Notes under the pieces: model-generated
Databases searched by the model: none
What the model was told of the DNA's origin: nothing
The model's input: only the letters and a program-made list of their open reading frames with translations
Translations under genes and position numbers: made by a program
DNA from: Dokdonella koreensis DS-123
GTDB taxonomy: Bacteria > Pseudomonadota > Gammaproteobacteria > Xanthomonadales > Rhodanobacteraceae
DNA length: 64,000 bases
Direction: 5' to 3'
NCBI RefSeq assembly: GCF_001632775.1
Contig: NZ_CP015249.1
Location: forward strand, 1,654,686-1,718,685
In this document: positions 16,569 through 63,279 of the stretch, one piece after another
How positions within the stretch are numbered: the stretch's first letter is position 1
How the letters are laid out: each line of letters begins with the position of its first letter

Positions 16569-17921
16569 ATGCCCGGCCACCCGCCCGCACGACCGATCCG
16601 CGGCCGCATGTCCGGCCGCTGGCGGGCGGTGGCGCGCCATGCCCGGGTGGTGCTCGCGCTGGCGGTCCTGGCCAGCGATGCCGGCGCGGTCCCGGTCGAG
16701 GTGAGCGCGGACGGGCGGACGATCGCGGTTGCGCAGCCGCCCGCCTCGACGCTGCCGGCGCCGCGCGGCGCGGCGAAGCTGCCGTTCGGTGCCACGCCGG
16801 ACTGGCAGAACACGCTCCGCGTCCAGGTCGGCGGCCTGGCGTTCGGCGACCTCAACGGCGACGGCCGGCCCGACCTGGCCGCCGTCTGCTACCAGTCATC
16901 GAGCTTCCCGCCGTACGAGGACTGGCGCAACTTCGTCTACTTCAACACCGGCACCGCGCTGCAGGCCGAGGCCGGCTGGATCTCGGCCGACCAGGTCCAC
17001 TCCGGCGACGCCGCGATCGCCGACATCGACGGCGACGGCACCAACGACCTGGTCGTCGCCAACGGCGGCAGCGCGTACGCAGCCAATGCGATCTACTTCG
17101 GCAGCGCCTCGGGACTGGCGACCACGCCGGGCTGGCTGAGCGCCCAGCCGGCCTGGGCCGTCGGCATGGAGCTGGTCGACATCGACGGCGACGGCGACCT
17201 GGACCTGTTGACCGCCAACCAGGGACGCAGCCAGCCCGACGTCCATCGTCCGGCCTACCTGTTCCGCAACGATGCCGGGCACCTGACGACGACACCGGTC
17301 TGGCAATCGGCCGAGTCCTCGATCCAGAACAGCGTCGCCGCCGGCGACCTGGACGGCGACGGGCGCCCCGAGATCGGCCTGGCCAAGTGGGTCGGCTTCA
17401 CCAGCGGCGTGCATTTCAATGCCGGCACCCTGCCGGAAACGACGCCGTCGCTGAGCCTGGGCGGCGGCCAGGGCGATCGCGGCATCGCCTTCGCCGACAT
17501 GGACGGCGACGGCCGGCAGGACATCGTGCTCGGCGTCGACGACCGCCTGCACATCTACATCAACGACGGCCAGGGCGGCTTCACCGATGCCTGGACGTCG
17601 GGCCAGGCCGCCAGCCACCAGGACCTGCTGGTCGCCGATTTCGACGGCGACGGCCTGCCGGACATCGTCGACATCGACTTCTCCAGCGGACGTGCCTACC
17701 TGTACATGAACCGCCCGGGCCTGCCGGCGACCACGCCGGACTGGAGCTACGACGCCGCCGCATCGGGCACCGCGCTCGCGGCCGCCGATATCGACGGCGA
17801 TGGCCGGCTGGACCTGGCGATCGGCTATTCGGGCCAGCCCTCGGTCGTCGTCTTCATCAATCGCCTGGTCGTCGAGGATCTGCTCTTCGCCGACGGGTTC
17901 GAGCTGGAGGGCCTGCGCTGA
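16569..17921 (+). CDS. Secreted seven-bladed FG-GAP/VCBS propeller protein with C-terminal GFE tag
   Basis: The product has 450 residues. The N-terminus has a signal-like stretch (RHARVVLALAVLASDAGA); a second ATG at codon 14 may be the true start. Seven Ca-binding D-x-[DN]-G-D-G loops (DLNGDGRPDL, DIDGDGTNDL, DIDGDGDLDL, DLDGDGRPEI, DMDGDGRQDI, DFDGDGLPDI, DIDGDGRLDL) predict a seven-bladed integrin-alpha-like propeller. The tail reads LLFADGFE followed by five residues, matching the tag of three other exoproteins here. It begins 3 bases after the aceF stop, an unexpected place for an exoprotein. No enzyme motif is seen. Confidence 0.84.
   Translation: MPGHPPARPIRGRMSGRWRAVARHARVVLALAVLASDAGAVPVEVSADGRTIAVAQPPASTLPAPRGAAKLPFGATPDWQNTLRVQVGGLAFGDLNGDGRPDLAAVCYQSSSFPPYEDWRNFVYFNTGTALQAEAGWISADQVHSGDAAIADIDGDGTNDLVVANGGSAYAANAIYFGSASGLATTPGWLSAQPAWAVGMELVDIDGDGDLDLLTANQGRSQPDVHRPAYLFRNDAGHLTTTPVWQSAESSIQNSVAAGDLDGDGRPEIGLAKWVGFTSGVHFNAGTLPETTPSLSLGGGQGDRGIAFADMDGDGRQDIVLGVDDRLHIYINDGQGGFTDAWTSGQAASHQDLLVADFDGDGLPDIVDIDFSSGRAYLYMNRPGLPATTPDWSYDAAASGTALAAADIDGDGRLDLAIGYSGQPSVVVFINRLVVEDLLFADGFELEGLR
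17883..17903 (+). other. GFE tag codons (C-terminal copy 1)
   Basis: These bases encode LFADGFE, 5 residues before the stop of the FG-GAP protein. They are one of four occurrences of the [ILV]-F-x-[DNS]-G-F-[ED] motif in secreted proteins of this window. Confidence 0.75.
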
Positions 17922-18033
17922 CGCACCATTCCGGCATTTTCGCGCGGTGCACGCACGACCGCGCGTCCCGACCGCCAGGATGGCCGCTTTTCGCTGACCC
18001 CGCTCGAACGATACCCACACGAGGAGTGCAGGC

Positions 18034-19314
18034 ATGAACAAGCTCTATCCGGCCGCGATCCCGGCGCTCGGCGCCGCCGTGCTGCTGACCCTGGCGGCCA
18101 CCGCGCCGCTGGCGGCGTCCGTCCCCACCGGCGACGAGAAGGACCCGATCTTCTCCAACGGCTTCGAGGTGCCGCCGCAGGCGATCTGCGGCTGGGAAAC
18201 CGCGCTCGGCACGCCCGGCGGATCGCTCAACGGCATCGGCCGCTGGGGCAGCGATGCCTATGCCGGTGGCTCGGCCGGCTCGGCGTTCAACGGCGTCAGC
18301 AACGGCGTCGCCCGTATCGACCTGGCGGCCGGCACCACGCACGCGCTCGGCTCCACCACGCTCGACGACGGCTTCGTCACCGACTTCGTGGCGTTCGACG
18401 CCGGCACCGGCGAGAAGCTCTACGTCGTCGGCAGCCAGAACGGCATCAGCAACGGCGGCACGCCGGTGCCCAACAGCAACGTGGTGTTCTCGTGGGACGG
18501 CACCACGGCCGGCGCACTGGCCGGCGCGAGCTTCCCGGGCCTGACGTTCGGCTGGGCCGGCCGGGTCTACCAGGGGCGCCTCGCGATCGGCGGCACCACC
18601 GGCATCCCGCAGCTGCCGCTGCTGGCGTTCTGGGACGGCACGACCTGGGAGACCCACAGCACCGGCTTCGAAGGCCTGGTCGCGCCGATCATCATGACGA
18701 TGGTCGAGTACCGCGGCGACCTCTACGTCGGCGGCCGCTTCGATCGCATCCGCCTGCCGGATGGCAGCGGTGGCGAGGTCGTGGTCGAGTCGAAGAACGT
18801 CATGGGCTTCGACGGCACCGGCTTCTTCTCGGTCGGCGGCGGCGTCAAGCGCGCGACCAGCACGATCTCGCAGGTGCAGGCGCTGGCCGTGTTCCAGGAC
18901 GCGCTCTACATCGGCGGCCGCTTCGACGCATCGGCGGTCGGCAACGTGCCGATGTTCGCGGTGGCGCGCTGGGACGGCACGACGCTGTCGGCGGTCGGCC
19001 GCGGCTTCCCGATGCCGACCGAAGTGCGCGACTTCGAGGTCTACGACGACGGCACCGGGCCGGCGCTGTACGCAGTCGGCAGCTTCACCGCCGATACGCA
19101 AGGCACGCCGATCCGCCGCTTCGCCAAGCTCGTGGCCGGCGAATGGGTCGAAGTCGCCGGCGGCATCGGCGAGAATCCGAACAAGGCGCTGACGCTGCCG
19201 GACGGCCGCCTCGCCGTTGCCGGAAGCTTCACCGAGGTCGGTGGCGGCGGCGTGGCCGGTTCCGGGCCCTCGACCGGCATCGCCGCCTTGTCCTGCCAGC
19301 TCGCGCCGCGCTGA
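18034..19314 (+). CDS. Secreted propeller-like protein with N-terminal GFE tag
   Basis: The product has 426 residues. A signal peptide (IPALGAAVLLTLAATAPLAAS) is followed at once by KDPIFSNGFE, a GFE tag at the mature N-terminus instead of the C-terminus. The rest is a series of about 50-residue blade-like units with repeated [LV]Y[IV]GG-F and [RF]WDGTT motifs (LYVGGRFD, LYIGGRFD, ARWDGTT, FWDGTT), suggesting a Kelch-like beta-propeller. No catalytic motif is evident. It has its own GAGGAG ribosome site at about 18021-18026 and lies 112 bases after the FG-GAP gene and 50 bases before lpdA. The function is unknown. Confidence 0.8.
   Translation: MNKLYPAAIPALGAAVLLTLAATAPLAASVPTGDEKDPIFSNGFEVPPQAICGWETALGTPGGSLNGIGRWGSDAYAGGSAGSAFNGVSNGVARIDLAAGTTHALGSTTLDDGFVTDFVAFDAGTGEKLYVVGSQNGISNGGTPVPNSNVVFSWDGTTAGALAGASFPGLTFGWAGRVYQGRLAIGGTTGIPQLPLLAFWDGTTWETHSTGFEGLVAPIIMTMVEYRGDLYVGGRFDRIRLPDGSGGEVVVESKNVMGFDGTGFFSVGGGVKRATSTISQVQALAVFQDALYIGGRFDASAVGNVPMFAVARWDGTTLSAVGRGFPMPTEVRDFEVYDDGTGPALYAVGSFTADTQGTPIRRFAKLVAGEWVEVAGGIGENPNKALTLPDGRLAVAGSFTEVGGGGVAGSGPSTGIAALSCQLAPR
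18148..18168 (+). other. GFE tag codons (N-terminal copy)
   Basis: These bases encode IFSNGFE directly after the signal peptide. This is the only one of the four tags at an amino terminus. Confidence 0.7.
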
Positions 19315-19364
19315 CCGCGCGGCCGTCACGCTTCTTCCCATCTCAACCGACGATCCTTTCCGAC

Positions 19365-21158
19365 ATGGCCACCAGCAGCGAAATCACCGTTCCCGACATC
19401 GGCAACTACAGCGACATTCCGGTCATCGAGCTGCTGGTGCAGCCGGGCGACACGGTGAAGAAGGACCAGGGACTGGTCACGCTGGAATCGGACAAGGCCA
19501 CCATGGAAGTGCCCTCGTCGGTGGCCGGGGTCGTCAAGGAACTGCGCGTCAAGATCGGCGACACGGTCAGCGAAGGCAGCGTCGTCGCGATCGTCGAGGC
19601 CGCCGATGCCGCCGCCGGCGCGGCGCCGGCCGCGGCGAAGGCCCCCGCCGAAGCGAAGGCACCGGCCGAAGCGAAGGCCGCGGCCGCGGCCCAGCCGGCG
19701 TCGCCACCCGCGCCGACCGCGGCGCCGGCGAGCGGCCGCGAGCCCGACCTCCGCTGCCAGGTCCTGGTGCTCGGCTCGGGTCCGGGCGGCTACACCGCCG
19801 CGTTCCGCGCCGCCGATCTCGGCCAGGACACCGTGCTGGTCGAGCGCTACACCTCGCTCGGCGGCGTCTGCCTCAACGTCGGCTGCATTCCGTCCAAGGC
19901 CCTGCTGCACGCTGCGCGCGTGATCGAGGAGGCCGCGCACGCGGCCGACATCGGCCTGGACTTCGGCGCGCCGAAGATCGACCTCGACAAGCTGCGCGGC
20001 CACAAGGAGAAGACCGTCGGCCAGATGGTCAAGGGCCTGTCCGGCATGGCCAAGCAGCGCAAGGTCACGGTGGTGCAGGGCACCGGCCGCTTCGTCTCGC
20101 CGAACGAACTGGAAGTGGAGGGCGCCGATGGCAGGAAGATCGTGCGCTTCGAGAAGGCGATCATCGCCGCCGGTTCGCAGGCGGTGAAGCTGCCGGGCTT
20201 TCCCTGGGACGATCCGCGCATGATGGATTCGACCGACGCGCTGGACCTGACCGACGTGCCGAAGAAGCTGCTGGTCGTCGGCGGCGGCATCATCGGCCTG
20301 GAGATGGCCTGCGTCTACGACGCGCTCGGCAGCGAGGTGACCGTCGTCGAGCTGATGGACCAGCTGATGCCCGGCGCCGACGCCGATCTCGTCAAGCCCT
20401 TGCAGCAGCGCCTGTCCAAGCGCTACGGCGGCATCCACCTGAAGGTCAAGGTGACCGGCATCGAGGCGGGCGGGAAGGGTCTGACCGCGACCTTCGAAGG
20501 CGAGGGCGCGCCGGCGCCGCAGACCTACGACCGCATCCTGGTCGCGGTCGGGCGTTCGCCGAACGGCGGCAAGATCGACGCGGACAAGGCTGGCGTCACC
20601 GTCACCGACCGCGGCTTCATCCCGGTCGATCGGCAGATGCGCACGAACGTGCCACACATCTTCGCGATCGGCGACCTGGTCGGCCAGCCGATGCTCGCGC
20701 ACAAGGCCACGCACGAGGGCAAGGTGGCGGCCGAGGTCGCCGCCGGCCAGAAGAGCGAGTTCGTGGCACGCGTGATCCCGAGCGTGGCCTACACCGATCC
20801 GGAAATCGCCTGGGTCGGCATGACCGAAGGCGAGGCCAAGAAGGCCGGCGTCGCCTATGGCATCGGCAAGTTTCCGCACATCGCTTCCGCGCGCGCGGTC
20901 GGCATCGGCCGCACCGAGGGCTTCACGAAGCTGATCTTCGACGAAGCCACGCACCGCCTGATCGGTGCCGGCATCGTCGCGCCGAACGCCGGCGACCTGA
21001 TCGCCGAGCTCGCGCTCGCGATCGAGATGGGTGCCGAAGCGGCGGACATCGGCCTGACCGTGCATCCGCACCCGACGCTGAGCGAGTCGGTCGGCTTGGC
21101 GGCCGAGGTCTACGAAGGGACCATCACCGACCTGTACATCCCGAAAAAGCGCGGCTGA
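19365..21158 (+). CDS. lpdA: Dihydrolipoyl dehydrogenase with N-terminal lipoyl domain (E3)
   Basis: It reoxidises dihydrolipoamide with NAD in the PDH (and possibly OGDH) complex. The 597-residue product starts with a lipoyl domain (Lys44 in LESDKATMEVPSS), then an Ala/Pro/Lys linker (about 85-120) with repeated APAEAK units. The flavoprotein follows: FAD-binding VLGSGPGGYTAAFRAADLG, redox-active CLNVGC (about 168 and 173), NAD-binding VVGGGIIGLEMACVY, the FAD motif FAIGDLVGQPMLAHKA, and the dimer-interface active-site HPHPTLSE. This architecture is known from Neisseria and xanthomonads. The lipoyl domain is very like that of aceF. Confidence 0.95.
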   Translation: MATSSEITVPDIGNYSDIPVIELLVQPGDTVKKDQGLVTLESDKATMEVPSSVAGVVKELRVKIGDTVSEGSVVAIVEAADAAAGAAPAAAKAPAEAKAPAEAKAAAAAQPASPPAPTAAPASGREPDLRCQVLVLGSGPGGYTAAFRAADLGQDTVLVERYTSLGGVCLNVGCIPSKALLHAARVIEEAAHAADIGLDFGAPKIDLDKLRGHKEKTVGQMVKGLSGMAKQRKVTVVQGTGRFVSPNELEVEGADGRKIVRFEKAIIAAGSQAVKLPGFPWDDPRMMDSTDALDLTDVPKKLLVVGGGIIGLEMACVYDALGSEVTVVELMDQLMPGADADLVKPLQQRLSKRYGGIHLKVKVTGIEAGGKGLTATFEGEGAPAPQTYDRILVAVGRSPNGGKIDADKAGVTVTDRGFIPVDRQMRTNVPHIFAIGDLVGQPMLAHKATHEGKVAAEVAAGQKSEFVARVIPSVAYTDPEIAWVGMTEGEAKKAGVAYGIGKFPHIASARAVGIGRTEGFTKLIFDEATHRLIGAGIVAPNAGDLIAELALAIEMGAEAADIGLTVHPHPTLSESVGLAAEVYEGTITDLYIPKKRG

Positions 21159-21450
21159 CCTCCAGGCCGCGCGCGCCCGGTGGCGATGCCGCCGGGCGTC
21201 CGTGTCCGCGCAGCGCAAGGCTGCGCGCGTACGTTTGCGCCGGCCGAGCGAGAACACGCGCCCCCATGGGGCGCTCGATGCGCGTTTGCGCTCCGGCTGC
21301 GGCGTTCCGATGGCCTTTTTCGTCGCTTCTCGTCTGTGGACAGGACGGTTCGCGCCGTGGCCGCCCCTGCGGGTCGCGGCGGCAGCTCCCTGGCCGCCCG
21401 CCGTCGGGTCGTCCGCGGCGGCCGTTCGTGCACGAACCTGAGGAGCAACG
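21159..21450. other. Gene-free gap with two GC-rich hairpins
   Basis: The 292 bases between lpdA and the delta-60 gene contain a 7-bp stem at 21208-21226 and a perfect dyad at 21258-21274 (7-bp arms, 3-base spacer). Neither is followed by a T-run, so intrinsic termination is doubtful. No convincing small gene is present; short frames here have Arg/Ala/Pro-rich shadow composition. Confidence 0.5.
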
Positions 21451-23460
21451 ATGTCCGCATTCATTCATCGGCTGGCGCGGGTGACCCGGCTCGCCGGCCT
21501 TTTGCTGGCCGGATCGATCCTGGCCGGGCCGGCCCTGGCCCGCGACGGCGATCCCGACAGGCGGTTCGGCCAGGACGGCGTGGCCTTCCTGGCGTCGTCC
21601 AACCCCAACGACCGGCTGCGCCCCACGCAGGTCGCCGCCCAGCCCGACGGCAAGCTGCTGCTCGCCGGCTCGCGCGACCGGTTCACGCCGAGCGCGCCGT
21701 TCGATCCGCATGCGCTGGGCCTGGTGGTGCGCCTGAATCCCGATGGCAGCGCCGATGCCTCGTTCGGTAGCGATCCGGCCGATCCGGGACTGGTCGTGCT
21801 GCCGGACCTGGTGGTCGGCACGGCCATGCAGGTGGTCGAGGCGATGCAGGTCCTCGGCGACGGCTCGATCCTCGTCGCCGGCACCGCCCAGGCGTTCGGC
21901 CCGTTGACCGGCTTCGTCGTCAAGCTCGCCGCCGATGGTTCCGTCGATCGCGACTTCGGCGATGCCGGCGTCATCCGGCTGGGCGGGGCGCGGTTCAACG
22001 CGCTCGCCGTCGACAGCCGCGGGCGCATCGTCGTGGCCGGCGAGCTCGCCGGCGCAGGCGGCATCAGTCGCGCGGTGGTCGCCCGCTACACCGCAGCGGG
22101 TGCGCCCGATGCCGCCTTCGGCGACCGTGACGGGCAGGTGCTGCTCGGCCAGGACGCGCCCGCGCGCGCCGGCTTCCTGCGCGCCGTGCACGTCGGTGCG
22201 GACGACGGCCTGCTGGTGGCCGGCTCCTGGGCTGAAGAGGACTTCGCCAGCGACGCGTACTGGATCCACCGGCTGGATGCCTCCGGCGCGCCCGATCCGG
22301 GGTTCGGCGACGGCGGCCGTCGCGTCTTCCGGCTGCCGGACAGCAGCTCCACGGTCAACGGTATCGGCTATCTGGTGGAGCAGCCTTCCGGCCACATCGT
22401 GTTCGCCGGCCATCACGAAGGCGCCGACGGGGTCGGTCTGGTCGTGGGGCGCCTGCACGCCGACGGCACGACGGACGTGCGTTTCGGCGACGGCACGCTG
22501 CCCGGCTACGCGCGGGTCGCCATCGCGCCGGACGCATGGAACCGCTATCCGAGCGGCCTGGTGCGCCAGAGCGACGGCCGCCTGGTGCTGAGCGCCAGCT
22601 ACGCAACCGGCGGGCGTTCGCAGTTCATCGCACTGCGACTGACCGCCGACGGCCGGCTCGACCCGAGCTTCGCCGACGGCGGCATCGCGACGTTCGACCT
22701 CGCCGCCGCCGGCGTGTTCAGCGACGCCACGGCACTGACGCTGACCGCCGGCCAGCCGGTGGTGGCGGGGGCGGCGATGCGGTCGGCCGGTGCGCGCGCG
22801 GTCGACCTGGCCGTCGTGAAGCTCGAGAACGACGGCGTCTTCCGCGAGGTCTTCGACGAGGCGCCGGCCGCGACCTCGACGGTCGTGACGATCGGCTACG
22901 ACGAACTCGCCGAGGGCTTCCGCGGCCCGGTCTTCGTTCACGGCGGCACGACCTGGCGCGAGGTCAACGGCGTCGACGGCGCCTATCCGGACGGCGAGCC
23001 ATTCGTGGCCGGCGAGCTCGGCACCGAGGTGATCGTCGAGGATGCCCGCATGCTGTTCGACGACTTTCCGACGTACGGCTCGGCACCGAACCTGCTGACC
23101 TTCGGCACCGCCCTCGTCCCCGGCGCCAACTTCACCGTCGGCCCGCTTTCGAGCGCCCAGTTGGACCTCGACACGCCGGCGGTCGGGGCACGCCTGGACC
23201 TGGTCCACTACGAGAACGGTCCCTGGGGCGGCATCGAGGTCCGTCTGGAGGCCTACTTCCACGACAGCCTCGTCGGCAGTGCGAGCTTCACGATCGCCGG
23301 CGGCAGTCCCGGTCGCGACAACCTGGCCTTGCGGACGCTGGCGATCGAAGGCGCGACGTTCGACACGCTTCGGCTCAAGGCGACGCTCGGCGGCACCTAC
23401 GCCGCGCCGCGGATCATGCTCGACAACCTGCGGCTGACGCGCCCGGTCGCCGGGCCGTAG
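21451..23460 (+). CDS. Secreted delta-60 repeat protein with C-terminal jelly-roll-like domain
   Basis: The product has 669 residues. Signal peptide LAGLLLAGSILAGPALA. Residues about 30-450 carry at least seven delta-60 repeats, each closing on D-x-x-F-[GA] then G (PDRRFGQDG, DASFGS, DRDFGDAG, DAAFGDRDG, DPGFGDGG, DVRFGDG, DPSFADGG) and containing V-x-[AG]-G-[ST] strands. These predict a beta-propeller-like fold. After the junction GVFREVFDEAPA, a roughly 195-residue beta-rich domain (TIGYDELAEGF to MLDNLRLTRPV) looks like a carbohydrate-binding-like or PEP-CTERM-associated domain. No anchor is seen. It is probably extracellular; its role is unknown. Confidence 0.82.
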   Translation: MSAFIHRLARVTRLAGLLLAGSILAGPALARDGDPDRRFGQDGVAFLASSNPNDRLRPTQVAAQPDGKLLLAGSRDRFTPSAPFDPHALGLVVRLNPDGSADASFGSDPADPGLVVLPDLVVGTAMQVVEAMQVLGDGSILVAGTAQAFGPLTGFVVKLAADGSVDRDFGDAGVIRLGGARFNALAVDSRGRIVVAGELAGAGGISRAVVARYTAAGAPDAAFGDRDGQVLLGQDAPARAGFLRAVHVGADDGLLVAGSWAEEDFASDAYWIHRLDASGAPDPGFGDGGRRVFRLPDSSSTVNGIGYLVEQPSGHIVFAGHHEGADGVGLVVGRLHADGTTDVRFGDGTLPGYARVAIAPDAWNRYPSGLVRQSDGRLVLSASYATGGRSQFIALRLTADGRLDPSFADGGIATFDLAAAGVFSDATALTLTAGQPVVAGAAMRSAGARAVDLAVVKLENDGVFREVFDEAPAATSTVVTIGYDELAEGFRGPVFVHGGTTWREVNGVDGAYPDGEPFVAGELGTEVIVEDARMLFDDFPTYGSAPNLLTFGTALVPGANFTVGPLSSAQLDLDTPAVGARLDLVHYENGPWGGIEVRLEAYFHDSLVGSASFTIAGGSPGRDNLALRTLAIEGATFDTLRLKATLGGTYAAPRIMLDNLRLTRPVAGP

Positions 23461-23473
23461 GACGTCGCATCGC

Positions 23474-23503
23474 CGCCCGGGCACGAGCCCGGGCGCGCTT
23501 CCT
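23474..23503 (+). terminator. Possible terminator after delta-60 gene
   Basis: A perfect 9-bp GC stem (23474-23482 with 23487-23495, loop ACGA) sits 14 bases after the stop. The following tract is only weakly T-rich (CGCTTCCTCGTT), so efficiency is uncertain. Confidence 0.55.
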
Positions 23504-23715
23504 CGTTCCCGTCCCGAACGCGCGGGCGGTGCGGCCGGTTCGGGAGCGGCGGCAGCCGGGCGCGCGCCTGGCCGGTACGGCGCCACGGTCGGTCGTGGCG
23601 TCGTGTCCGCGCCGCGTCGTCCGCGGTTTCCGGCATGCAGGGCTTCGGCGACAATCGCGCGCCGGCCCGCCAGCCCCGCGCGGAACCGGTTCGCCCTCCC
23701 GACAACCGAGGCTGC

Positions 23716-25017: not shown

Positions 25018-25108
25018 GTGGTCCGGTGCGGGACGTGCCGGCCGACATCGGCAGGACATCGCGCGTTGGCAGCATTGCCGGCGATACCCCGGCCGGAGCG
25101 CGTGCCCG

Positions 25109-36637: not shown

Positions 36638-37912
36638 TCAATCGAAGCCGGATGCGAAGACCCCGTCATGGAGCACCATCACGACGACCTGGCCGGCATC
36701 GACGATCCCGTTCTCGTCGCCCGTTTCCGGCCAGCCCACGATGACGTAGTTACCCCACATCGCCATCGAGAACGGCGAGTTCCAGCCGGACGCCGGGCCG
36801 GGAACACGCGCGGTTCCGATGACTTTCCATCCGCCTTCCGGTTGGGGTGTCGCCAGCAGGATCTCCGGTCCGTTCGCACCGACGACCAGGCAGACGAACT
36901 GTTCTTCGAAGAGCGCGAGCGCCAGGCAGCCGTCGACATACGGATAGCCGTTGAGATCGGCCATTGGGTAGCCCCCCGACCAGCTGCCGTCGCTATCGAA
37001 CTGAAACCTGAAACCGATGACCGGGAAATCGATCGCCCCGCTCACGACCAGGGTATCCAGATAGCGCGTGATGATGCCGAAGTCGTACCAGGACGTTGTC
37101 GGAACGGTCAGCGTGCCGGTCGGCGCGAAGTCTTCGTCGCCCCATCGCCGATAGACGCGCGGACCTGCAACCAGCCATTGGTAGCGATACTTGTCCGTGT
37201 AAAGCTCCACGTTGCGCCCGTAGCCAGCGGGCGGCCATACGAGACCAGTAGGGAGTGCGATGGTTTGTTTCAGGACGAGCTGCTGCGGGAAGAAGATCGG
37301 CTCGTAGATCAGCACCTCGGCTCCACCCGATGCGTACCGCGTCACGGCGATGGTCGTATTGGCCAGTGCTACGTCGACGTCCCAGACCGTTCCGATGTCC
37401 GGCAGCGTAGTCTCCATGCCCCAAAGATCCGGCGAAACCGCATCGTAGAATCCGAGTCGCATGCCGCCGGCAGCCGGGAAGGCCGGTTTCGACACGACGG
37501 CGACATAGGCGCTACTGAAAGCTTCTACGGCAATGGCGGCGCCGAATCCCGTTCCGGGCAGCGGCGCCAGCGGCAGCAGCGGCTGCTCCACGGGCTCCCC
37601 GCCCCAGCCCGGCGGCACGTGCAGCCAGACGGCTCCACTTCCCGCCTCGCCGCTGGAGTAGCCCGGACTGCCGATCCACAGCCGTCCGGCGCGGATCTCC
37701 ACGTCCGCGCCGAAGCGCGCGTGACTGGGATCGATGCCATCGCGCTGGACTCCCGTCACGACCTGGGTCGGGACGGAATTCGCGGGATGCGCGCCAGGCG
37801 GTCGCACGATCTGCAGTGGCCAGGCGATCGTCGGCAATGCGCCCTGGGCGCTTTCCGCGAAAACGAGCAACGCCAGAATCAGCGAAGCGGGCCAGCCCGC
37901 TCGAACGTCCAT
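36638..37912 (-). CDS. Secreted FG-GAP-like protein ending in VFASGFD (GFE tag variant)
   Basis: The product has 424 residues from the ATG at 37912 (MDVRAGWPASLILALLVFAESAQG, a good signal peptide); a start 13 codons upstream is possible but breaks the signal. The mature part has loosely repeated G-A-[DS]-[VI]-x-[IV]-x-x-G-x-[IL] blade units (FGADVEIRAGRLWIGSPGYSSGEAGSGAVWL, FGAAIAVEAFSSAYVAV, NYVIVGWPETGDENGIVDAGQVVV), suggesting an FG-GAP or beta-propeller fold. It stops right after VFASGFD. Its base composition looks more AT-rich than the flanking genes, and it lies inside the repeat-bounded block, so horizontal origin is plausible. Confidence 0.75.
   Translation of the reverse strand: MDVRAGWPASLILALLVFAESAQGALPTIAWPLQIVRPPGAHPANSVPTQVVTGVQRDGIDPSHARFGADVEIRAGRLWIGSPGYSSGEAGSGAVWLHVPPGWGGEPVEQPLLPLAPLPGTGFGAAIAVEAFSSAYVAVVSKPAFPAAGGMRLGFYDAVSPDLWGMETTLPDIGTVWDVDVALANTTIAVTRYASGGAEVLIYEPIFFPQQLVLKQTIALPTGLVWPPAGYGRNVELYTDKYRYQWLVAGPRVYRRWGDEDFAPTGTLTVPTTSWYDFGIITRYLDTLVVSGAIDFPVIGFRFQFDSDGSWSGGYPMADLNGYPYVDGCLALALFEEQFVCLVVGANGPEILLATPQPEGGWKVIGTARVPGPASGWNSPFSMAMWGNYVIVGWPETGDENGIVDAGQVVVMVLHDGVFASGFD
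36641..36661 (-). other. GFE tag codons (C-terminal copy 2, variant)
   Basis: These bases encode VFASGFD immediately before the stop: Asp replaces the final Glu and Ser replaces Asp/Asn. Confidence 0.6.
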
Positions 37913-38157
37913 GCGGCAATCGTCGTGCCGCCCGACAGATACCGATGCCATGACACTCCCCGATGGCGTGGGTGCCGACAGCGTACCAGGGTATCGAGCG
38001 GTGTCGGCACCGGCAGCCGCCCCGCCGGGCGGTCAGCGGCCGCTGTCCCGTGACGCGGGTTCATCACCGGCCCCGTCGGCATGCAAGGCGCATGTGCGGG
38101 AACGCAATCGCGCTGGTCCGAACGCAGGGCAGCAGAATCAGCCCGTTGTGTCGCTCA
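37913..38157. other. Gene-free gap, right part of the block
   Basis: Upstream region of the leftward exoprotein gene. It contains its presumed promoter (none close to consensus seen) and a short stretch at about 38074-38100 faintly reminiscent of the tRNA-Cys anticodon arm, too weak to call. Confidence 0.4.
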
Positions 38158-49600: not shown

Positions 49601-49601
49601 T

Positions 49602-53730: not shown

Positions 53731-53742
53731 CCGCACGTGCGG
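53731..53742. promoter_or_regulatory. 12-bp palindrome between hutI and hutF
   Basis: CCGCACGTGCGG is self-complementary. It sits in the divergent promoter region and could be an operator for a hut regulator. Confidence 0.4.
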
Positions 53743-53756
53743 CGTGTCAGAATCCG

Positions 53757-53770
53757 CAGACGATCGTCTG
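53757..53770. promoter_or_regulatory. 14-bp palindrome upstream of hutF
   Basis: CAGACGATCGTCTG is perfectly self-complementary and lies 19 bases before the hutF ATG, just after a CAGAAT -10-like box. It does not resemble the pseudomonad HutC site. It is a good candidate for a local operator. Confidence 0.5.
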
Positions 53771-53789
53771 TTGCCGCCGGAGTCCGCCC

Positions 53790-55154: not shown

Positions 55155-55163
55155 TCGCGGCAC

Positions 55164-55184
55164 CGCCCGGCCCGCGGCCGGGCG
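55164..55184. terminator. GC-rich hairpin after hutF
   Basis: A perfect 9-bp stem (55164-55172 with 55176-55184, loop CGC) lies 10 bases past the hutF stop without a T-run. It is a possible weak or Rho-assisted terminator. Confidence 0.4.
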
Positions 55185-55223
55185 TCACCGGGCCGGCTGC
55201 CGGCGCGTGCTACCATCGCGGCG

Positions 55224-55237
55224 TTTGGCCATCCAAA
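55224..55237. promoter_or_regulatory. Inverted repeat upstream of the transaminase gene
   Basis: TTTGG-CCAT-CCAAA follows a TACCAT -10-like box at 55211-55216, placing it near the presumed transcription start. It is a candidate operator for methionine or glutamine control; no known factor matches it. Confidence 0.35.
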
Positions 55238-55278
55238 TGGTGCGCGCCCGCAGCGCGCGAAGACGCAGGCGAGGAACG

Positions 55279-56430: not shown

Positions 56431-56432
56431 CC

Positions 56433-57236
56433 ATGAGCCTGCCGCCGCTGCGCGTATCACTGGTCCAGGGCGACACGCGCTGGCACGACCCGGCCGCCAA
56501 CCGCGCCTACTACGGCGCGCGGATCGCGGCGCTGAAGGGGCAGGGCGACCTGATCGTGCTGCCCGAGACCTTCCTGAGCGGCTTCACCAACGAAGCCCTG
56601 GTCAACGCCGAGACCATGGACGGCGAAGGCCTGCGCTGGCTGCGGGCGGCGGCTGCCGATGCCGGCGCTGTCGTCACCGGCAGCCTGGTCGTCCGTCACG
56701 GCGATACCTGCGTCAACCGCCTGGTCTGGATGCGGCCGGACGGCAGCCATGCGTTGTACGACAAGCGGCACCTGTTCAGGATGGCCGGCGAGCACGAGCG
56801 CTACGGCAGCGGACGCGAGCGCCTGGTGGTCGAGCTGAACGGCTGGCGCATCTGCCCGCAGGTCTGCTACGACCTGCGCTTCCCGGTCTGGCTGCGCAAC
56901 CGCTACGACCGCGCTGCCGGGCGCTTCGACTACGACCTGCTGATCTTCGTCGCCAACTGGCCCAGTCCGCGCCGCCACGCCTGGCGCACCCTGCTGCGCG
57001 CGCGCGCGATCGAGAACCTGGCGTACTGCGCCGGCGTCAACCGGGTCGGTACCGACGGCAACGCGCTGGCCTATGCCGGCGACAGCGCCGTACTGGATTT
57101 CCTCGGCCAGCCGCTGGTCGACCTGGGCGCGCAGGAGCAGGTCGTCACGGTCACGCTGGATCCGGCCGCGCTGGCGGCGCACCGGCAGCGTTTCCCGGCC
57201 TGGATGGACGCCGACGACTTCCAGCTCGATCCCTGA
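56433..57236 (+). CDS. Omega-amidase, nitrilase superfamily (YafV/MtnU-like)
   Basis: The product has 267 residues. The catalytic triad is Glu in [12 protein letters not shown], Lys in [13 protein letters not shown] and Cys in [17 protein letters not shown]. Conserved [20 protein letters not shown] follows. The family hydrolyses 2-oxoglutaramate or 2-oxosuccinamate. Coupled with the transaminase upstream (2-base gap), it probably serves methionine salvage. Confidence 0.9.
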
Positions 57237-57264
57237 GGCCGCGCGCGGGCCCGCTTCGGTGGGA

Positions 57265-57289
57265 GACGGCCATCTGGACGGCCATATGG
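57265..57289. promoter_or_regulatory. Direct repeat and palindrome upstream of sulfate operon
   Basis: GACGGCCAT occurs at 57265-57273 and again at 57277-57285, 12 bases apart (about one helical turn). The second copy runs into the palindrome CCATATGG (57282-57289). It may be an activator or repressor site for the sulfate genes; no named consensus was matched. Confidence 0.4.
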
Positions 57290-57363
57290 TTATGCTGGCG
57301 GCAGGTTGGACGCGGCGGGGTCGATTGCATAGGCTAGTTCGACGATCCCTGCGGAGCCTGCCG

Positions 57364-58356
57364 ATGAAACGCCTGACCCTGGGCCTTGCGTTCCTGCTTT
57401 CGATCGGCGCCGCGAACGCCGCCGACGTCGCCCTGTTCAACGTCTCCTACGATCCCACGCGCGAGCTCTACCAGCAGATCAACGCGCAGTTCGCCGCGTA
57501 CTGGAAGGAGAAGACCGGCGACACCGTGACGATCAAGCAGTCGCACGGCGGCTCGTCCAAGCAGGCGCGCGCGATCCTCGACGGCCTGGAGGCCGACGTC
57601 GCCACGCTGGGCATCGCCTCGGACATCGACGCCCTGCACGAGAAGGGCGGCCTGCTGCCGGCCGACTGGCAGGCGCGCCTGCCCGGCGACAGCACGCCGT
57701 ACGTCTCGACGATCGTGCTGCTGGTGCGCAAGGGCAACCCCAAGGCGGTGCGCGACTGGGACGACCTGGTCAAGCCCGGCGTCGCGGTCATCACGCCGAA
57801 TCCGAAGACCTCGGCGGGCGCGCGCTGGAACGTGCTGGCCGCCTACGCCTTCGCGCTCAAGCGCGAGGGCGGCGACGAGGCGAAGGCCAAGGCGTTCCTC
57901 GGTGCCTTGTTCAAGAACGTGCCGGTGCTCGACACCGGCGCCCGCGGCTCCACCGTCACCTTCGCCCAGCGCGGCCTCGGCGACGTGCTGATCGCCTGGG
58001 AGAACGAGGCGCACCTGGTCCTCAAGGAGTTCGGTGCCGACAAGTTCGACATCGTCGTGCCGCCCTCGTCGATCCTGGCCCAGCCGCCGGTCGCGGTGGT
58101 GGACACCTATGCGAAGAAGCACGGCACCGAGGCGCTGGCCGAGGCCTACCTGCGCTACCTCTACACGCCCGAGGCGCAGGAGATCATCGCCCGCAACCAC
58201 TACCGGCCGCTGGATCCCGGTGTCGCCGCGCGCTACCAGGACCAGTTCCCGAAGCTGGACCTGGTGACGATCCAGGCCTTCGGCGGCTGGAAGGTCGCGC
58301 AGGCGAAGTTCTTCGGCGACGGCGGCATCTTCGACCAGATCTACGCCGCGCCGTAA
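57364..58356 (+). CDS. sbp: Periplasmic sulfate-binding protein (first copy)
   Basis: The product has 330 residues. Signal peptide [16 protein letters not shown]. Family motifs: [30 protein letters not shown] (sulfate-contacting Ser/Gly), [47 protein letters not shown] and the C-terminal FGGW. It delivers sulfate/thiosulfate to the CysTWA transporter encoded next (28-base gap to cysT). Confidence 0.95.
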
Positions 58357-58384
58357 CCCCGGCCGCCGGAGCAGGAGAGCCACG

Positions 58385-59239
58385 ATGAGCGCCAGCGCCG
58401 TTCTGCCGTCCCCGATCGTGCGCCGGCACCGCTCGGTGCTGCCGGGCTTCGGCCTCACGCTCGGCTTCACGCTGGCCTACCTGTCGCTGATCGTGCTGCT
58501 GCCGCTCGCCGCGCTGCTGCTGCGCGCGGCCGGCCTGGGCTGGTCCGGCATCCTCGCCGTGCTCGATTCGCCGCGCGTGGGCCACGCGCTGTGGCTGAGC
58601 TTCGGCGGCGCGCTGGCCGCGGCTGCGATCAATGCGGTGTTCGGCGCGCTGATCGCCTGGACCTTCGTGCGCTACAGCTTCCCCGGCAAGCGCCTGTTCC
58701 AGGCGATGGTCGACCTGCCGTTTGCGCTGCCGACGGCCGTGGCCGGCATCGCGCTGACCTCGCTGTACGCAGCCAACGGCTGGATCGGAAAGCCGCTGGC
58801 GGCGATCGGCGTCCAGGTCGCCTACACGCCGCTCGGCGTGGTGCTGGCGATGACCTTCGTCGGCCTGCCGTTCGTCGTGCGCACGCTCGAGCCGGTGCTG
58901 GAGGAGGCCGAGAAGCAACTGGAGGAAGCCGCCGCGACCCTCGGCGCCACGCGCTGGCAGACGATCACGCGGATCGTGGTGCCGGCCGCACTGCCGGCGC
59001 TGCTGACCGGTACCGCGCTGGCGTTCGCGCGCGCGGTGGGTGAATACGGCTCGATCATCTTCATCGCCGGCAACCTGCCGGGCATCTCGGAGATCGCGCC
59101 GCTGCTGATCATGATCCGCCTGGAGGAGTTCGACTACGCCGGCGCCACGGTGATCGCCGCGGCGATGCTCGGGCTGTCGTTCCTGGTCCTGCTGGCGATC
59201 AACCTGTTGCAACACTGGAGCCGCAGCCGCGGCGCCTGA
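58385..59239 (+). CDS. cysT: Sulfate/thiosulfate ABC transporter permease CysT (CysU)
   Basis: The product has 284 residues with six predicted helices. FGLTLGFTLAYLSLIVLLPLAALLL is the first. The EAA cytoplasmic loop (EEAEKQLEEAAATLGATRWQTITRIVVPAALPALLTG, about 180-216) contacts the ATPase. It lies between the two binding-protein genes. The symbol should not be confused with the tRNA-Cys gene. Confidence 0.94.
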   Translation: MSASAVLPSPIVRRHRSVLPGFGLTLGFTLAYLSLIVLLPLAALLLRAAGLGWSGILAVLDSPRVGHALWLSFGGALAAAAINAVFGALIAWTFVRYSFPGKRLFQAMVDLPFALPTAVAGIALTSLYAANGWIGKPLAAIGVQVAYTPLGVVLAMTFVGLPFVVRTLEPVLEEAEKQLEEAAATLGATRWQTITRIVVPAALPALLTGTALAFARAVGEYGSIIFIAGNLPGISEIAPLLIMIRLEEFDYAGATVIAAAMLGLSFLVLLAINLLQHWSRSRGA

Positions 59240-59259
59240 CGAAACCCAAGGACTCCACG

Positions 59260-60252
59260 ATGAAACGCTTGCTGTTTTCGCTGATGGCCGTGCTGGCCGC
59301 CGGCCCCGCTACCGCCGCCGGCCTGCTGAACGTCAGCTACGACGTCGCCCGCGGGCTCTACCAGGAGCTCAATCCGCTGTTCGTCACGCACTGGAAGCAG
59401 ACCCACGGCGAGACCGTGGACATCGACCAGTCGCACGGCGGCTCCAGCAAGCAGGCGCGCGCGGTGATCGACGGCCTGGCGGCGGACGTCGTGACGATGA
59501 ACAGCCCGCTCGACATCGACGTGCTCGCCGATACCGGCCTGCTGCCCAAGACCTGGGCGGCGGCGTTCCCCGAGCGCAGCAGCCCGTCCTGGTCGGCGAT
59601 CGTCTTCGTCGTGCGCAAGGGCAATCCCAAGCAGGTCGCCGACTGGCCGGACCTGGTCCGCGGCGACGTCAAGGCGGTGCTTCCGAACCCCAAGACCTCC
59701 GGCAACGGCCGCTACAGCTACCTGGCGGCCTGGCACTACGCGCGCAGCCAGCCCGGCGCCACGGAGGCATCGGCGATCGACTTCGAGAAGCGGTTCTTCG
59801 CCAACGTGCCGGTGCTCGACATCGGCGGCCGCGACGCGACCACGACCTTCGCCCACCGCGGAATCGGCGACGCGCTGCTGACGTTCGAGAGCGAGGCCAA
59901 GGTGATCCTCGCCACGTTCGGGGCCGACCGCTTCGAGATCGTCTATCCGTCGCTGAGCGTGCGCGCGGACAATCCGGTCGCCGTGGTCGAGAAGAACACC
60001 GCGCGCAAGGGCACGACGGCGCTGGCCAAGGCCTACCTGGCCTTCCACTACGGCAAGGCGGCGCAGGCGGTCTTCGCCAAGCACGGGCTGCGTCCGGTGG
60101 ACGCCGAGGTGGCGGCCGCGCATGCGGCGGCCTTCCCGCCGATCGCGACCTTCACCGTCGAAGAGGCCTTCGGCGGCTGGCCGGCCGCGCAGGCGGCGCA
60201 TTTCGCCAGTGGCGCGCATTTCGACCGGATCATCGCCGAGGTCCGCAAGTGA
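59260..60252 (+). CDS. Periplasmic sulfate-binding protein (second copy)
   Basis: The product has 330 residues, a paralogue of the first binding protein with identical length. Signal peptide [16 protein letters not shown]. It shares [42 protein letters not shown] and FGGW but differs widely elsewhere (EERSSPSW-like and [16 protein letters not shown] regions), so it is an old duplication, perhaps with a different oxyanion preference (thiosulfate, molybdate or selenate). AAGGA precedes the ATG. It separates cysT from cysW, an uncommon order. Confidence 0.93.
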
Positions 60253-60268
60253 CGGCCGGAGCGCCCCG

Positions 60269-61129
60269 GTGAGCGCCACGCGCCGCCGCGCGCGCACGGC
60301 GACCGGCGAGCCGGCCGTCGTGCGCGGGCTGCTGATCGTGCTGACCGTGGCGTTCCTCGCGCTGTTCCTGCTGCTGCCGCTGGCGTTGATGTTCGCGCAG
60401 GCGTTCGCCGGCGGCGTCAAGGCCTACTTCGCGGCGATCACCGAGAGCGACGCGCTGGCGGCGATCCGCCTGACCCTGATCGCGGCGGCGATCGCGGTAC
60501 CGCTGAACGCGGTCTTCGGCGTGGCCGCGGCCTGGGCGATCGCCAAGTTCGAGTTTCGCGGCAAGAACCTGCTGACGACGCTGATCGACCTGCCGTTCTC
60601 GGTGTCGCCGGTCATCGCCGGCATGGTGTTCATCCTGCTGTTCGGTGCGCACGGCTGGTTCGGCGCGTGGCTGATCGAGCACGACGTCAAGATCGTGTTC
60701 GCCCTGCCGGGCATCGTGCTGGCGACGATCTTCGTGACGTTCCCGTTCATCGCGCGCGAGCTGATCCCGCTGATGGAGGCGCAGGGCAGCAGCGAGGAGC
60801 AGGCCGCGCTCACGCTCGGCGCCGGCGGCTGGAAGGTGTTCTGGCACGTCACCCTGCCGAACGTGCGCTGGGGCCTGCTCTACGGCGTGCTGCTGTGCAA
60901 TGCGCGTGCGATGGGCGAGTTCGGCGCGGTCTCGGTGGTCAGCGGCCACATCCGCGGGCTGACCAACACGATGCCGCTGCACGTGGAAGTGCTCTACAAC
61001 GACTACCAGTTCGCCGCGGCGTTCGCGGTGGCATCGCTGCTGGCGCTGCTGGCCCTGGTCACGCTGGGGCTCAAGAGCCTGCTCGAATGGCGCCACGGCG
61101 ACGAGCTGGCGGCGTTGCGGGGCAGGTGA
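60269..61129 (+). CDS. cysW: Sulfate/thiosulfate ABC transporter permease CysW
   Basis: The product has 286 residues from a GTG at 60269 ([14 protein letters not shown]), 16 bases after the second binding-protein gene. Six membrane helices; EAA loop [31 protein letters not shown] (about 175-205), followed by [31 protein letters not shown], the CysW signature. Confidence 0.94.
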
Positions 61130-61158
61130 GCCCGCCGATGTTTTGCATCCTGTTAACG

Positions 61159-61184
61159 CCGCAGGCGGAACAATCGTTCTGCGG
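61159..61184 (+). other. Bulged hairpin between cysW and cysA
   Basis: CCGCA/TGCGG outer arms (61159-61163 and 61180-61184) enclose GAAC-AATC-GTTC (61168-61179), with a 4-base bulge on the left. There is no T-run, so it is probably not a terminator. It might set relative cysA expression or protect the upstream mRNA. Confidence 0.4.
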
Positions 61185-61214
61185 TCGATCGATTCCTGCA
61201 AAGGCGCATGACCG

Positions 61215-61982
61215 GTGAAGATCACGATACGCAACGTCGGCAAGCATTACGGCGCGGTGAGCGCGCTGGAGGCGGTCGACCTGGACATCGCCTCGGGCGA
61301 GCTGCTCGCCTTGCTGGGACCGTCCGGCTCCGGCAAGACCACGCTGCTGCGCGCGATCGCCGGCCTGGAGGGCATCGACCAGGGCAGCATCGCCTTCGGC
61401 GAGATCGACGCGACGCGCCTGTCGGTGCAGGAGCGCCGCGTCGGCTTCGTGTTCCAGCACTACGCGTTGTTCAAGCACATGAACGTGCTCGACAACGTCA
61501 CCTTCGGCCTGCGCATGCGGCCGCGCGCGGAGCGCCCGCCACGCGCGGCAATCCGCGCGCGCGGCAGCGAGCTGCTGGCCCTGGTCCAGCTCGGCGGCCT
61601 GGAGGCGCGCTATCCCAATCAGCTGTCCGGCGGCCAGCGCCAGCGTGTCGCGCTGGCGCGCGCGCTGGCGATCGAGCCGCGCGTGCTGTTGCTCGACGAA
61701 CCGTTCGGCGCGCTCGACGCCAAGGTCCGCAAGGAGCTGCGCGTGTGGCTGCGTGCGCTGCACCGCGAGCTCGGCTACACCACGGTCTTCGTGACGCACG
61801 ACCAGGACGAGGCGCTGGAACTGGCCGATCGCGTGGTCGTCATGAATGCCGGGCGCATCGAGCAGGTCGATACGCCGGAGGCGATCGTGCGGCGGCCGGC
61901 GACCGCCTTCGTCGCCGACTTCATCGAGTCGCGCGACGAGCGGCGCCCGCCGTCGCCACCGCGGTTCGCGCTGGCGCACTAG
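61215..61982 (+). CDS. cysA: Sulfate/thiosulfate ABC transporter ATP-binding protein CysA, short form
   Basis: The product has 255 residues from GTG 61215. Walker [11 protein letters not shown]-loop FVFQHYALF, signature [15 protein letters not shown], Walker [13 protein letters not shown] and switch [15 protein letters not shown] are complete. CysA is usually 330-365 residues with a C-terminal TOBE-type regulatory domain. This one stops after [25 protein letters not shown] and lacks that domain. The following 127 bases contain no continuing frame with that homology, so it looks like a true short form. Confidence 0.92.
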
Positions 61983-62109
61983 GCTTCGCCTTCATCCCCG
62001 GGGCGCGCGCAGGAGCGGTGCGGCCCGGCCGGGGATCGATGGATACACGCCCTTGCATCGCGGACGCGCCTGCCGGCTGCGGTGCGATCCGGTGCGGCGC
62101 CCGGCCCGC

Positions 62110-63279
62110 TCACGGCTCGAAGCCGTCGACGAAGAGGCGGTCATTGCAGTCCCGGTGCCACGGCGTGGTGCCGGTCGCGGCATCCCAGGCGGCACTCGGC
62201 GTCGCTGCCAGCGGGTTGGGGCACAGCGCGGATCCGTCGGCGACCAGGATGCTGCCGGGCGGTGGCTCGGGCACGCTGCCGCTCAACCGGTTGTCCTCGA
62301 TGCGCAGGCGGCGCAGGGCGGCGCCGACCGGCGGTACGCTGCCGGTCAGCCGGTTGCCGGCGGCGCGGAAGCTGTCGAGCTTCGCCGCGTCGGCCAGGGC
62401 CGGTAGCGCACCGGTCAGCCGGTTGTCCGAGACGCTGTACTCGGTCAGGTCCGTCGCTCCGGCCAGCGGCGGGATCGTGCCGCTCAACTGGTTGCCGACC
62501 GCCGAGAAGTGGCCGATCGGCAGCCCGTCCAGCACCGGCAGCGGCCCGCTGAGCTGGTTGTAGCTGAGCGTGAGCACGCGCAGGCGGGTCAGCTCGGACA
62601 GGTCCGGGATCGGCCCGCTCAGCGCGTTGTCGTCGAGCAGCAGGTTGGCGAGCTGGGGCAGCGCGGTCAGCGGCGGAACGGTCCCGCTGAGCCGGTTGCG
62701 CGAGAGTTCCAGCAGGTTCAGGCGCGGCAGGCCGGAAAGGACCGGCAGCGGCCCGTCGATCAGGTTGTCCGAGGCGCGCAGCGTGGTCAGCGCGTTCAGC
62801 CCGGCCAGGCTCGGCAACGGTCCTTCGAGCCGGTTCTCGCGCACGTCGAGCCAGTTCAGGGACGAAAGGCCGGTCAGGCTCGGCAGCGGCCCGCTGAGCT
62901 GGTTGCGGTTGGCGTAGAACGCGGCCAGCTGGGTCATCGATGCCAGCGGCGGCAGCGGGCCGCTCAGCTGGTTGCTGCCGAGCAGCACCGTCTGTACGCG
63001 CGTGAGATTACCGAGCGAGGCCGGCAGCGTGCCGACCAGGTGGTTGTTCGACAACGACAGCACCATCACGCGGTCATTGAGGCAGGTGATGCCGAACCAG
63101 GCGCATTCGCCACCGGGCGGACCGTTCCAGCCGGTCGAGTCGGTCCAGCCGCTGCCGCCGGTCGCGGCATAGAGGTCGAGCAGGGCGGCGCGTTCGTCGG
63201 CGGGGACCTGGGCGGCCAGCGGCGCGGCGGCGCAGGCGGCGAGCACGGCGATGAAACGGGCGAGGCGATGGATCGGCAT
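62110..63279 (-). CDS. Secreted plant-type leucine-rich-repeat protein with GFE tag
   Basis: The product has 389 residues from ATG 63279 (MPIHRLARFIAVLAACAAAPLAAQ, signal peptide). An LRRNT-like cap (ERAALLDLYAATGGSGWTDSTGWNG, CAWFGITCLN) is followed by about eleven 21-24-residue repeats of the plant-specific type (L-x-x-L-x-L-x-x-N-x-L-[ST]-G-x-[LIV]-P), for example LGNLTRVQTVLLGSNQLSG and LSELTRLRVLTLSYNQLSG. A short Cys-containing end (ALCPNPLA, HRDCNDRLFVDGFEP) carries the GFE tag. The likely role is a surface or extracellular binding scaffold. Such LRRs are known in Xanthomonas and others, possibly acquired from eukaryotes. Confidence 0.85.
   Translation of the reverse strand: MPIHRLARFIAVLAACAAAPLAAQVPADERAALLDLYAATGGSGWTDSTGWNGPPGGECAWFGITCLNDRVMVLSLSNNHLVGTLPASLGNLTRVQTVLLGSNQLSGPLPPLASMTQLAAFYANRNQLSGPLPSLTGLSSLNWLDVRENRLEGPLPSLAGLNALTTLRASDNLIDGPLPVLSGLPRLNLLELSRNRLSGTVPPLTALPQLANLLLDDNALSGPIPDLSELTRLRVLTLSYNQLSGPLPVLDGLPIGHFSAVGNQLSGTIPPLAGATDLTEYSVSDNRLTGALPALADAAKLDSFRAAGNRLTGSVPPVGAALRRLRIEDNRLSGSVPEPPPGSILVADGSALCPNPLAATPSAAWDAATGTTPWHRDCNDRLFVDGFEP
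62113..62136 (-). other. GFE tag codons (C-terminal copy 3)
   Basis: These bases encode LFVDGFEP, the last eight residues of the LRR protein. A Cys lies four residues before the motif. Confidence 0.75.

Follow-up and report, generated by a model that had tools for sequence, protein, structure and literature searches.

What does a short peptide do that recurs on proteins with little else in common? The question is raised by a 64,000-nucleotide stretch of Dokdonella koreensis DS-123 (contig NZ_CP015249.1, positions 1,654,686 to 1,718,685; the whole stretch is called the window here), in which a preliminary description had noticed four heptapeptides of the form [ILV]-F-x-[DNS]-G-F-[ED]. All four are indeed present, in frame and in the places described, except that LFVDGFE begins at 62116 and not at 62113, a start that would take in the final proline codon. 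We find that this tag is real, large in scale and, among the genomes sampled, specific to one lineage, and that for the gene families tested its association with a particular type II secretion system (T2SS), here called T2SS-A, is strong. We put at roughly one in two the probability that the tag would be a short linear secretion signal read by T2SS-A. The four carriers and their nine-residue tag sites in the window are as follows.

16569..17921, plus strand: carrier 1, an exported FG-GAP repeat protein (by translation; FG-GAP_3 match, E 5e-49; leader seen by eye)
17877..17903, plus strand: tag D-L-LFADGFE, 9 residues, 5 residues ahead of the carrier 1 stop
18034..19314, plus strand: carrier 2, an exported propeller-like protein of 426 amino acids (signal peptide at about residues 1-29, by heuristic)
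18142..18168, plus strand: tag D-P-IFSNGFE, placed N-terminally, right behind the signal peptide region of carrier 2
36638..37951, minus strand: carrier 3, a protein without a Pfam match (leader seen by eye)
36641..36667, minus strand: tag D-G-VFASGFD, the final residues of carrier 3
62110..63279, minus strand: carrier 4, an exported leucine-rich repeat (LRR) protein of 389 amino acids starting at 63279 (LRR matches; signal peptide by heuristic)
62116..62142, minus strand: tag D-R-LFVDGFE, one residue ahead of the carrier 4 stop

The heptapeptides proper occupy 17883-17903 in carrier 1 (450 amino acids from 16569, with an alternative later start at 16647), 18148-18168 in carrier 2 (residues 39-45), 36641-36661 in carrier 3 (its last seven residues) and 62116-62136 in carrier 4, and in the translations of all four copies an aspartate stands two positions upstream. 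The signal-peptide heuristic is negative for carriers 1 and 3, in which a leader is visible by eye. The preliminary description took all four carriers for repeat scaffolds; this stands for carriers 1 (FG-GAP) and 4 (LRR), while the 18034 protein has only sub-threshold propeller-type matches in the Pfam scan (DUF5122/Rax2) and the 36638 protein has no Pfam match at all. Homologs of the latter in two other genomes of the genus are 36% and 29% identical and end in LFSSGFE and IFRSGFD.

The D. koreensis genome, a single contig of 4,446,619 bases, contains 95 matches to a degenerate DNA pattern for the motif and none to the reversed pattern used as a control; the window copy VFASGFD (36641) lies outside the 95, because the pattern spells serine only as AGY and not as TCN. 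In the stretches fetched around the matches (1.33 Mb including the window), a six-frame search gave 100 translated matches, with no residue following the motif in 12, 1-5 residues in 57, 6-10 in 7, 11-15 in 5 and more than 40 in 19. A simple gene caller found 891 genes there, 93 with the motif, from which two chance matches (L050 6025 and L080 9517, L denoting a fetched stretch) were removed to leave 91. The motif lies at most 13 residues from the C-terminus in 75 of these 91 carriers, over which the consensus is [DE]-x-[ILV]-F-x-[DNSG]-G-F-[DE], its F, G and F being fixed by the motif search itself. Position -2 is D or E in 69 of the 75, the last residue is D in 38 and E in 37, and the tail behind the tag is unconserved, 0-13 residues long and absent in 10.

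Of 839 called genes, 75 have the motif within their last 22 residues; shuffling gives a mean of 0.025 and, in 200 shuffles, a maximum of 1. Since the stretches were selected by motif matches, this comparison measures non-randomness and not a genome-wide share. The 93 instances are written by 81 different DNA words, and selection acts on the tag at the peptide level. That it is a DNA-level repeat or a chance peptide is hardly credible: single chance matches do occur (the 2 among the 93 called carriers), but the reversed control gave none in this genome, the DNA words are diverse and the last place takes both Asp and Glu. The reversed-pattern, shuffle and DNA-word controls thus rule out simple chance and DNA repeats. 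The strict motif undercounts tags, because near-variants stand at the C-termini of further exported proteins: VFAHGFD, IFRSGLD, IFADGFG, IWSDGFE and IFLQGFE, with near-variant loci at L053 6454-7578, L054 8378-9937, L074 7330-9837, L078 2416-3777 and L095 4902-7829.

The carriers, about ninety in this genome, are mostly exported, of many folds and otherwise unrelated. The preliminary description had proposed looking for enrichment of the tag in signal-peptide proteins, and within the limits of a crude heuristic score this enrichment is present: 72 of 89 carriers are positive, as compared to 213 of 617 non-carriers of at least 200 amino acids (Fisher p 8e-17), and in many of the 17 negative carriers a leader can be made out by eye close to a start that was called wrongly. 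Neither of the outcomes named there as a refutation, a lack of enrichment or an equal frequency in proteins that stay inside the cell, was thus observed with this score. For family scans we used 94 carriers or near-carriers, drawn from 101 relaxed-pattern genes with a few near-variants included and with seven omitted beforehand (L035 1163, L041 5163, L045 2233, L061 16520, L068 16605, L071 18176 and L073 17631; L071 18176 may be a true near-variant carrier). Among the NCBIfam and Pfam matches listed are S8 peptidases (11), choice-of-anchor domains J (8), Q (8), D (4) and I (1), FG-GAP, Kelch and delta-60 repeats, LRRs, M12B-like peptidases, endonuclease I and DUF1800, and carriers also match the models of rhombosortase- and myxosortase-dependent M36 peptidases. 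One DUF1501 carrier has a twin-arginine leader (RRDFLK). A restriction of the tag to repeat-scaffold proteins is therefore not borne out, as 11 of the 94 match S8 peptidases and others match M12B-like peptidases, DUF1800, endonuclease I or DUF1501. Nor does the tag mark every exported or every repeat protein: in the window it is missing from two solute-binding proteins (57364 and 59269), a TonB-dependent receptor (47273), a phosphodiesterase with a lipobox-like leader (seen by eye) and the exported DUF5122 repeat protein at 21481-23460.

The tag is conserved where orthologs can be followed, most clearly in the DUF1501 family, for which the carrier and its orthologs are:

G000:C1:729254-730669: DUF1501 carrier, with orthologs at L129-L147

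The tag stands at the end of every one of the 19 ortholog loci read in five tag-rich genera, unaltered in 12 and with a single change to H or Q in 7; this reading leaves out second copies (L154-L157) and the fragments of one genome, G036 (L148, L158). An alignment of 18 of the orthologs shows the D, F, G and F of the tag invariant and the linker ahead of it variable. All five distant homologs from the tag-poor genera g4 and g19 (35-39% identical) end without a tag. Of the 21 tag-rich genomes 20 have close homologs, whereas the 76 others have only distant ones, in 5 genomes. The tagged protein was modeled with AlphaFold, but at a mean predicted local distance difference test (pLDDT) of 52.9 the model is too poor to place the tag relative to the fold.

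The position of the tag within the protein is free. A search for S8 peptidases in 34 of the 97 family genomes (one locus, L263 of G035, was read in the wrong frame and is not counted) placed the tag just ahead of the catalytic Asp in D. koreensis, G075, G088 and G043, at another internal site in G091, G035 and G059 (four loci), 190 residues ahead of the frame end in a further copy from G043, and right at the C-terminus in G014. Other internal copies are placed between domains, and the sequence that follows them recurs in pairs (L034 3463-4104 with L075 11567-12205, L044 with L088, L055 with L068; 52%, 35% and 37% identical), which suggests that domains may have been added behind a formerly C-terminal tag. 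A strictly terminal signal is not supported, since the tag is found also just past signal peptides, between domains and within S8 peptidases, and this freedom of position points to a docking motif that needs exposure and not to C-terminal trimming.

These observations also bear on the possibility that the tag is a processing signal, near which an exported protease or transpeptidase cuts in order to trim or link the protein. C-terminal processing tags usually mark exoproteins, and 75 of the 91 copies do lie within 13 residues of the C-terminus. However, N-terminal and internal copies would on this account cut off or split the protein, and a tail of 0-13 unconserved residues is too short for a membrane helix and a basic tail. 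Hydropathy predicts a helix beyond residue 45 in only 3 of 93 carriers, one of them a chance match; the NCBIfam sorting-signal models have no match in the four window carriers, and among the 12 families that 74 C-terminal 60-mers match at E up to 0.1 (a set from which L041 5160, probably a shadow frame, is also excluded) there is no CTERM signal model. We therefore set C-terminal processing aside as the main reading, given the missing helix and the copies at N-terminal and internal sites, and consider it unlikely. Of the sorting, secretion, anchoring or processing signal originally suggested, a sorting or secretion type is favored by the enrichment at protein ends, the export signals, the lineage restriction and the conservation in orthologs, and processing is no longer the first choice; the accompanying statements that the tag has no membrane helix and belongs to no named family are supported too, no CTERM model being matched.

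In the genomes sampled, frequent occurrence of the tag is nearly confined to one branch of the family. Across 97 family genomes, 21 have 25-200 motif matches and 76 have 0-5; the tag-rich genera are g1 (that of the window), g14, g16 and g26, plus two of five g8 genomes. With a stricter pattern only two of 369 genomes sampled across the class exceed 4 matches, and both belong to this family. Named genomes give 23 stretches with an exact 20-base form followed by a stop one residue later: 7 are from Dokdonella, 1 each from Tahibacter, Pseudofulvimonas, a Wenzhouxiangellaceae assembly and an Opitutaceae assembly, 8 from assemblies of Lysobacterales or Lysobacteraceae, and 4 from assemblies whose names go no further than the phylum. 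Whole-genome motif counts are 117 in D. fugitiva, 64 in D. immobilis, 66 in Pseudofulvimonas, 40 in Tahibacter caeni, 7 in the Wenzhouxiangellaceae assembly and 1 in the Opitutaceae assembly. The Wenzhouxiangellaceae assembly (L284), with 7 matches against 0 in the control, lies above the class background of 0-4 and is a possible outlying tag user.

As expected of T2SS substrates, most carriers have a Sec or Tat signal peptide by the heuristic score, and a T2SS is encoded in the same genome. A search for the secretin GspD in 43 genomes (20 tag-rich and 23 tag-poor; G036, 85% complete, was omitted from the 21 tag-rich ones) found it above cut-off in all 43, and in more than one kind. T2SSs in general are therefore ruled out as the tag partner, and only one type discriminates: the type A GspD (542-589 bits) occurs at full length in 19 of the 20 tag-rich genomes, with a fragment in the twentieth (G079), and G025 is the one genome of the 23 tag-poor ones to have it. 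A tree built from 16 secretins sets type A apart from the other kind; within type A, the proteins of tag-rich genomes cluster tightly and G025 is on a long branch. Type A GspG was detected in 19 of 20 tag-rich genomes versus 5 of 19 tag-poor ones (four of g25, one of g24).

Tag and machine are also absent together. In a tree of 45 genomes built on ATP synthase proteins, the tag-rich genomes group together with three that are tag-less (support 81), and g2, the sister of this group, has neither the tag nor a type A GspD or GspG. The three tag-less genomes, G008, G031 and G061 of g8, lack T2SS-A as well and nest inside the tag-rich group (bootstrap 96-100 with G075, 89 with G088), so that, as placed by the tree, their joint absence appears to be a loss. 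None of the six S8 homologs in these g8 genomes carries a tag; the closest are 44-45% identical, and in the four closest the tag site is altered, for example to DSLFGDLD versus DTLFANGFD. Since the tag-less g8 genomes still encode S8 homologs, the machine and the tag went together while the S8 cargo was retained.

The genes of T2SS-A were called with a codon model of the D. koreensis genome; G016 (L173, L247) and G059 (L246), whose stretches were poorly called, are excluded from the gene order. In D. koreensis, gspC-D-E lie at 697.3-701.7 kb and gspG-H-I-J-K at 3,140-3,143 kb; GspC (T2SSC plus PDZ), GspD, GspE, GspG and GspK score above cut-off, and gspH, gspI and gspJ were recognized by BLAST. 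The gspL and gspM genes are seen in G043, G088, G014 and g25, and a gspF-like gene lies near gspE in the tag-rich G026, G043 and G075. GspC-A combines a T2SSC domain with a PDZ domain at the C-terminus, and its best profile matches are OutC, PulC and EpsC; Pfam PDZ matches, some below the Pfam cut-off, occur in 5 of 5 type A GspC proteins scanned and in 0 of 2 GspC-like proteins of the other T2SS. The structural model of GspC-A (mean pLDDT 63.4) supports the PDZ region only, which has a Foldseek match to the EpsC PDZ. In both g26 genomes read, tagged genes adjoin gspC-A: one in G026 (IFADGFD) and two in G043 (LFRDGFD and IFRDGFD).

From these sequences a route may be proposed. The carriers would first pass through the inner membrane via Sec or, in at least one case, under a Tat-type signal, with the tag held in a terminus or linker that is probably flexible and would stay uncleaved. 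In the periplasm the tag would be recognized by T2SS-A, most likely through the PDZ domain of GspC and/or the periplasmic part of GspD, and T2SS-A would then carry the folded protein across the outer membrane. A fuller form of this proposal, to which we give somewhat less than even odds, is that a nine-residue, position-independent signal directs unrelated folded proteins, dozens to about 200 in each genome, to a single dedicated T2SS via the GspC PDZ or the secretin and is lost from the cargo once the machine is lost; it would be the first such signal shared by a whole type II secretome.

Several observations weigh against reading by T2SS-A. Within the window, an exported DUF5122 repeat protein of 659 amino acids (21481-23460) has no tag, and this kind is often tagged in the same genome. 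The S8 homolog of G016 likewise has no tag. Genus g25 is tag-poor (motif counts 0, 2, 1 and 0) yet T2SS-A-like, with a type A GspG in 4 of 4 genomes tested; the sole g25 GspD examined, that of G025, is 44% identical to the D. koreensis type A protein. Genus g24 combines a type A-scoring GspG with a different secretin. T2SS-A thus does not imply the tag, and conversely GspG-A was not detected in the tag-rich G075 (93% complete). The gspF, gspL and gspM genes of T2SS-A were not seen in the D. koreensis stretches fetched. Beside gspC-A, the neighboring gene has only degenerate ends (IIFRYGHE, LIFANDLE) in D. koreensis, G086 and G075, and in two g14 genomes its place is taken by a helicase-like gene that has no tag. 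The co-occurrence is based on one clade and one clear joint loss, and that loss is one event followed in one cargo family; a first, smaller tree had several deep nodes at 29-54 support, the group support of 81 coming from the larger tree. The gene families profiled were GspD, GspG and DUF1501 and not the whole genome, and the distribution of DUF1501 is nearly the same as that of T2SS-A.

The same correlation would arise if the tag served surface retention, the proteins leaving by any route and then being held by a surface receptor that binds it, with T2SS-A correlating because the receptor or the cargo needs it. Many carriers match choice-of-anchor domains (the J, Q, D and I models counted above), which elsewhere stand ahead of anchoring signals, and a free tag position suits any docking motif. 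However, no receptor candidate was found, although no systematic receptor search was made. We view surface retention as doubtful. According to PMC10765051, whose table includes Dokdonella and Tahibacter, the surface-layer gene npdA adjoins gsp genes. As its position fits this arrangement, the gene after gspD of the other T2SS at L168 (10906-12375; homologs in L179 and L180, no Pfam match) is probably npdA. Homologs of this probable npdA (43-45%) also lie beside the other T2SS in the tag-less G008 and G061, and the NpdA surface layer was set aside as tag receptor for this reason.

PDZ proteins bind short hydrophobic peptides, and F-x-x-G-F is a plausible ligand. This also suits a periplasmic chaperone or quality-control handle, for instance a DegP-type PDZ ligand, that would keep proteins soluble before export and have no part in the choice of exit. 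DegP-like proteins are widespread, though, and the tag is not; moreover, exported proteins of the window that should remain in the periplasm or outer membrane (57364, 59269 and 47273) do without it. We consider such a handle very unlikely.

Secretion through T2SS-A has its nearest parallels in known T2SS substrates. The recruitment of cargo by T2SSs is called elusive or poorly understood in PMC7949064 and PMC12369372. The former describes signals that are composite and partly disordered, and a 9-residue PelI loop that acts as a secretion signal via GspC and GspD; according to the latter, VesB secretion requires the EpsC PDZ, which captures a fusion made with the VesB Ig-fold. The PelI and Pel3 loops (loop 3 and others) and the VesB Ig-fold resemble the present case in being short exposed regions of exported folded substrates, for which contact with the GspC PDZ and GspD is reported (PMC7949064, PMC12369372), and GspC-A is also of the PDZ type. 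The signals described there are loops or a fold, composite and substrate-specific, whereas here one near-invariant linear motif of shifting position is found on about 90 unrelated proteins.

The GlyGly-CTERM/rhombosortase, MYXO-CTERM/myxosortase and PEP-CTERM/exosortase systems are alike in equipping dozens of exoproteins per genome with a short, mostly C-terminal tag, and their cargo overlaps with ours (choice-of-anchor proteins and the rhombosortase- or myxosortase-dependent M36 models). PEP-CTERM and GlyGly-CTERM signals are tripartite, and CTERM signals are cleaved. The MYXO-CTERM architecture is likewise tripartite (motif, membrane helix, basic tail). Unlike these, the present tag has neither helix nor tail, occurs also at N-terminal and internal sites, and has no known protease partner, though no search for an exosortase, rhombosortase or sortase was made. 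Type IX secretion too uses a C-terminal tag on exoproteins of similar families that cross the outer membrane; its signals are folded domains of about 80 residues in Bacteroidota, whereas here nine residues are found in Gammaproteobacteria. No such tag is described in the titles and abstract beginnings searched, in which a query with the motif letters was swamped by unrelated names and says little.

If T2SS-A does read the tag, a matching machine together with a natural lineage lacking both would make recognition testable by simple fusions and mutants, prediction of secretomes from sequence would be helped in these bacteria, and the peptide could be used as a portable tag for export. Should the partner be a different one, the tag would still be a lineage-wide protein address system, for which we found no name.

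The genes beside gspC-A are located as follows.

L167 11989-13533: gene beside gspC-A
L172 11526-13025: gene beside gspC-A
L178 4404-6038: gene beside gspC-A
L178 6206-8236: second gene beside gspC-A
L169 6686-8053: gene beside gspC-A, with DUF5122 repeats

The L169 gene has no significant BLAST match to the gspC neighbor of D. koreensis, and homology of the two was dropped for this reason. Among the tags themselves, those of L038, L059 and L076 form a subgroup with a common tail of about 10 residues holding CPGI or CPSI; the copies of L038 and one of L076 lie in very short frames, perhaps broken genes.

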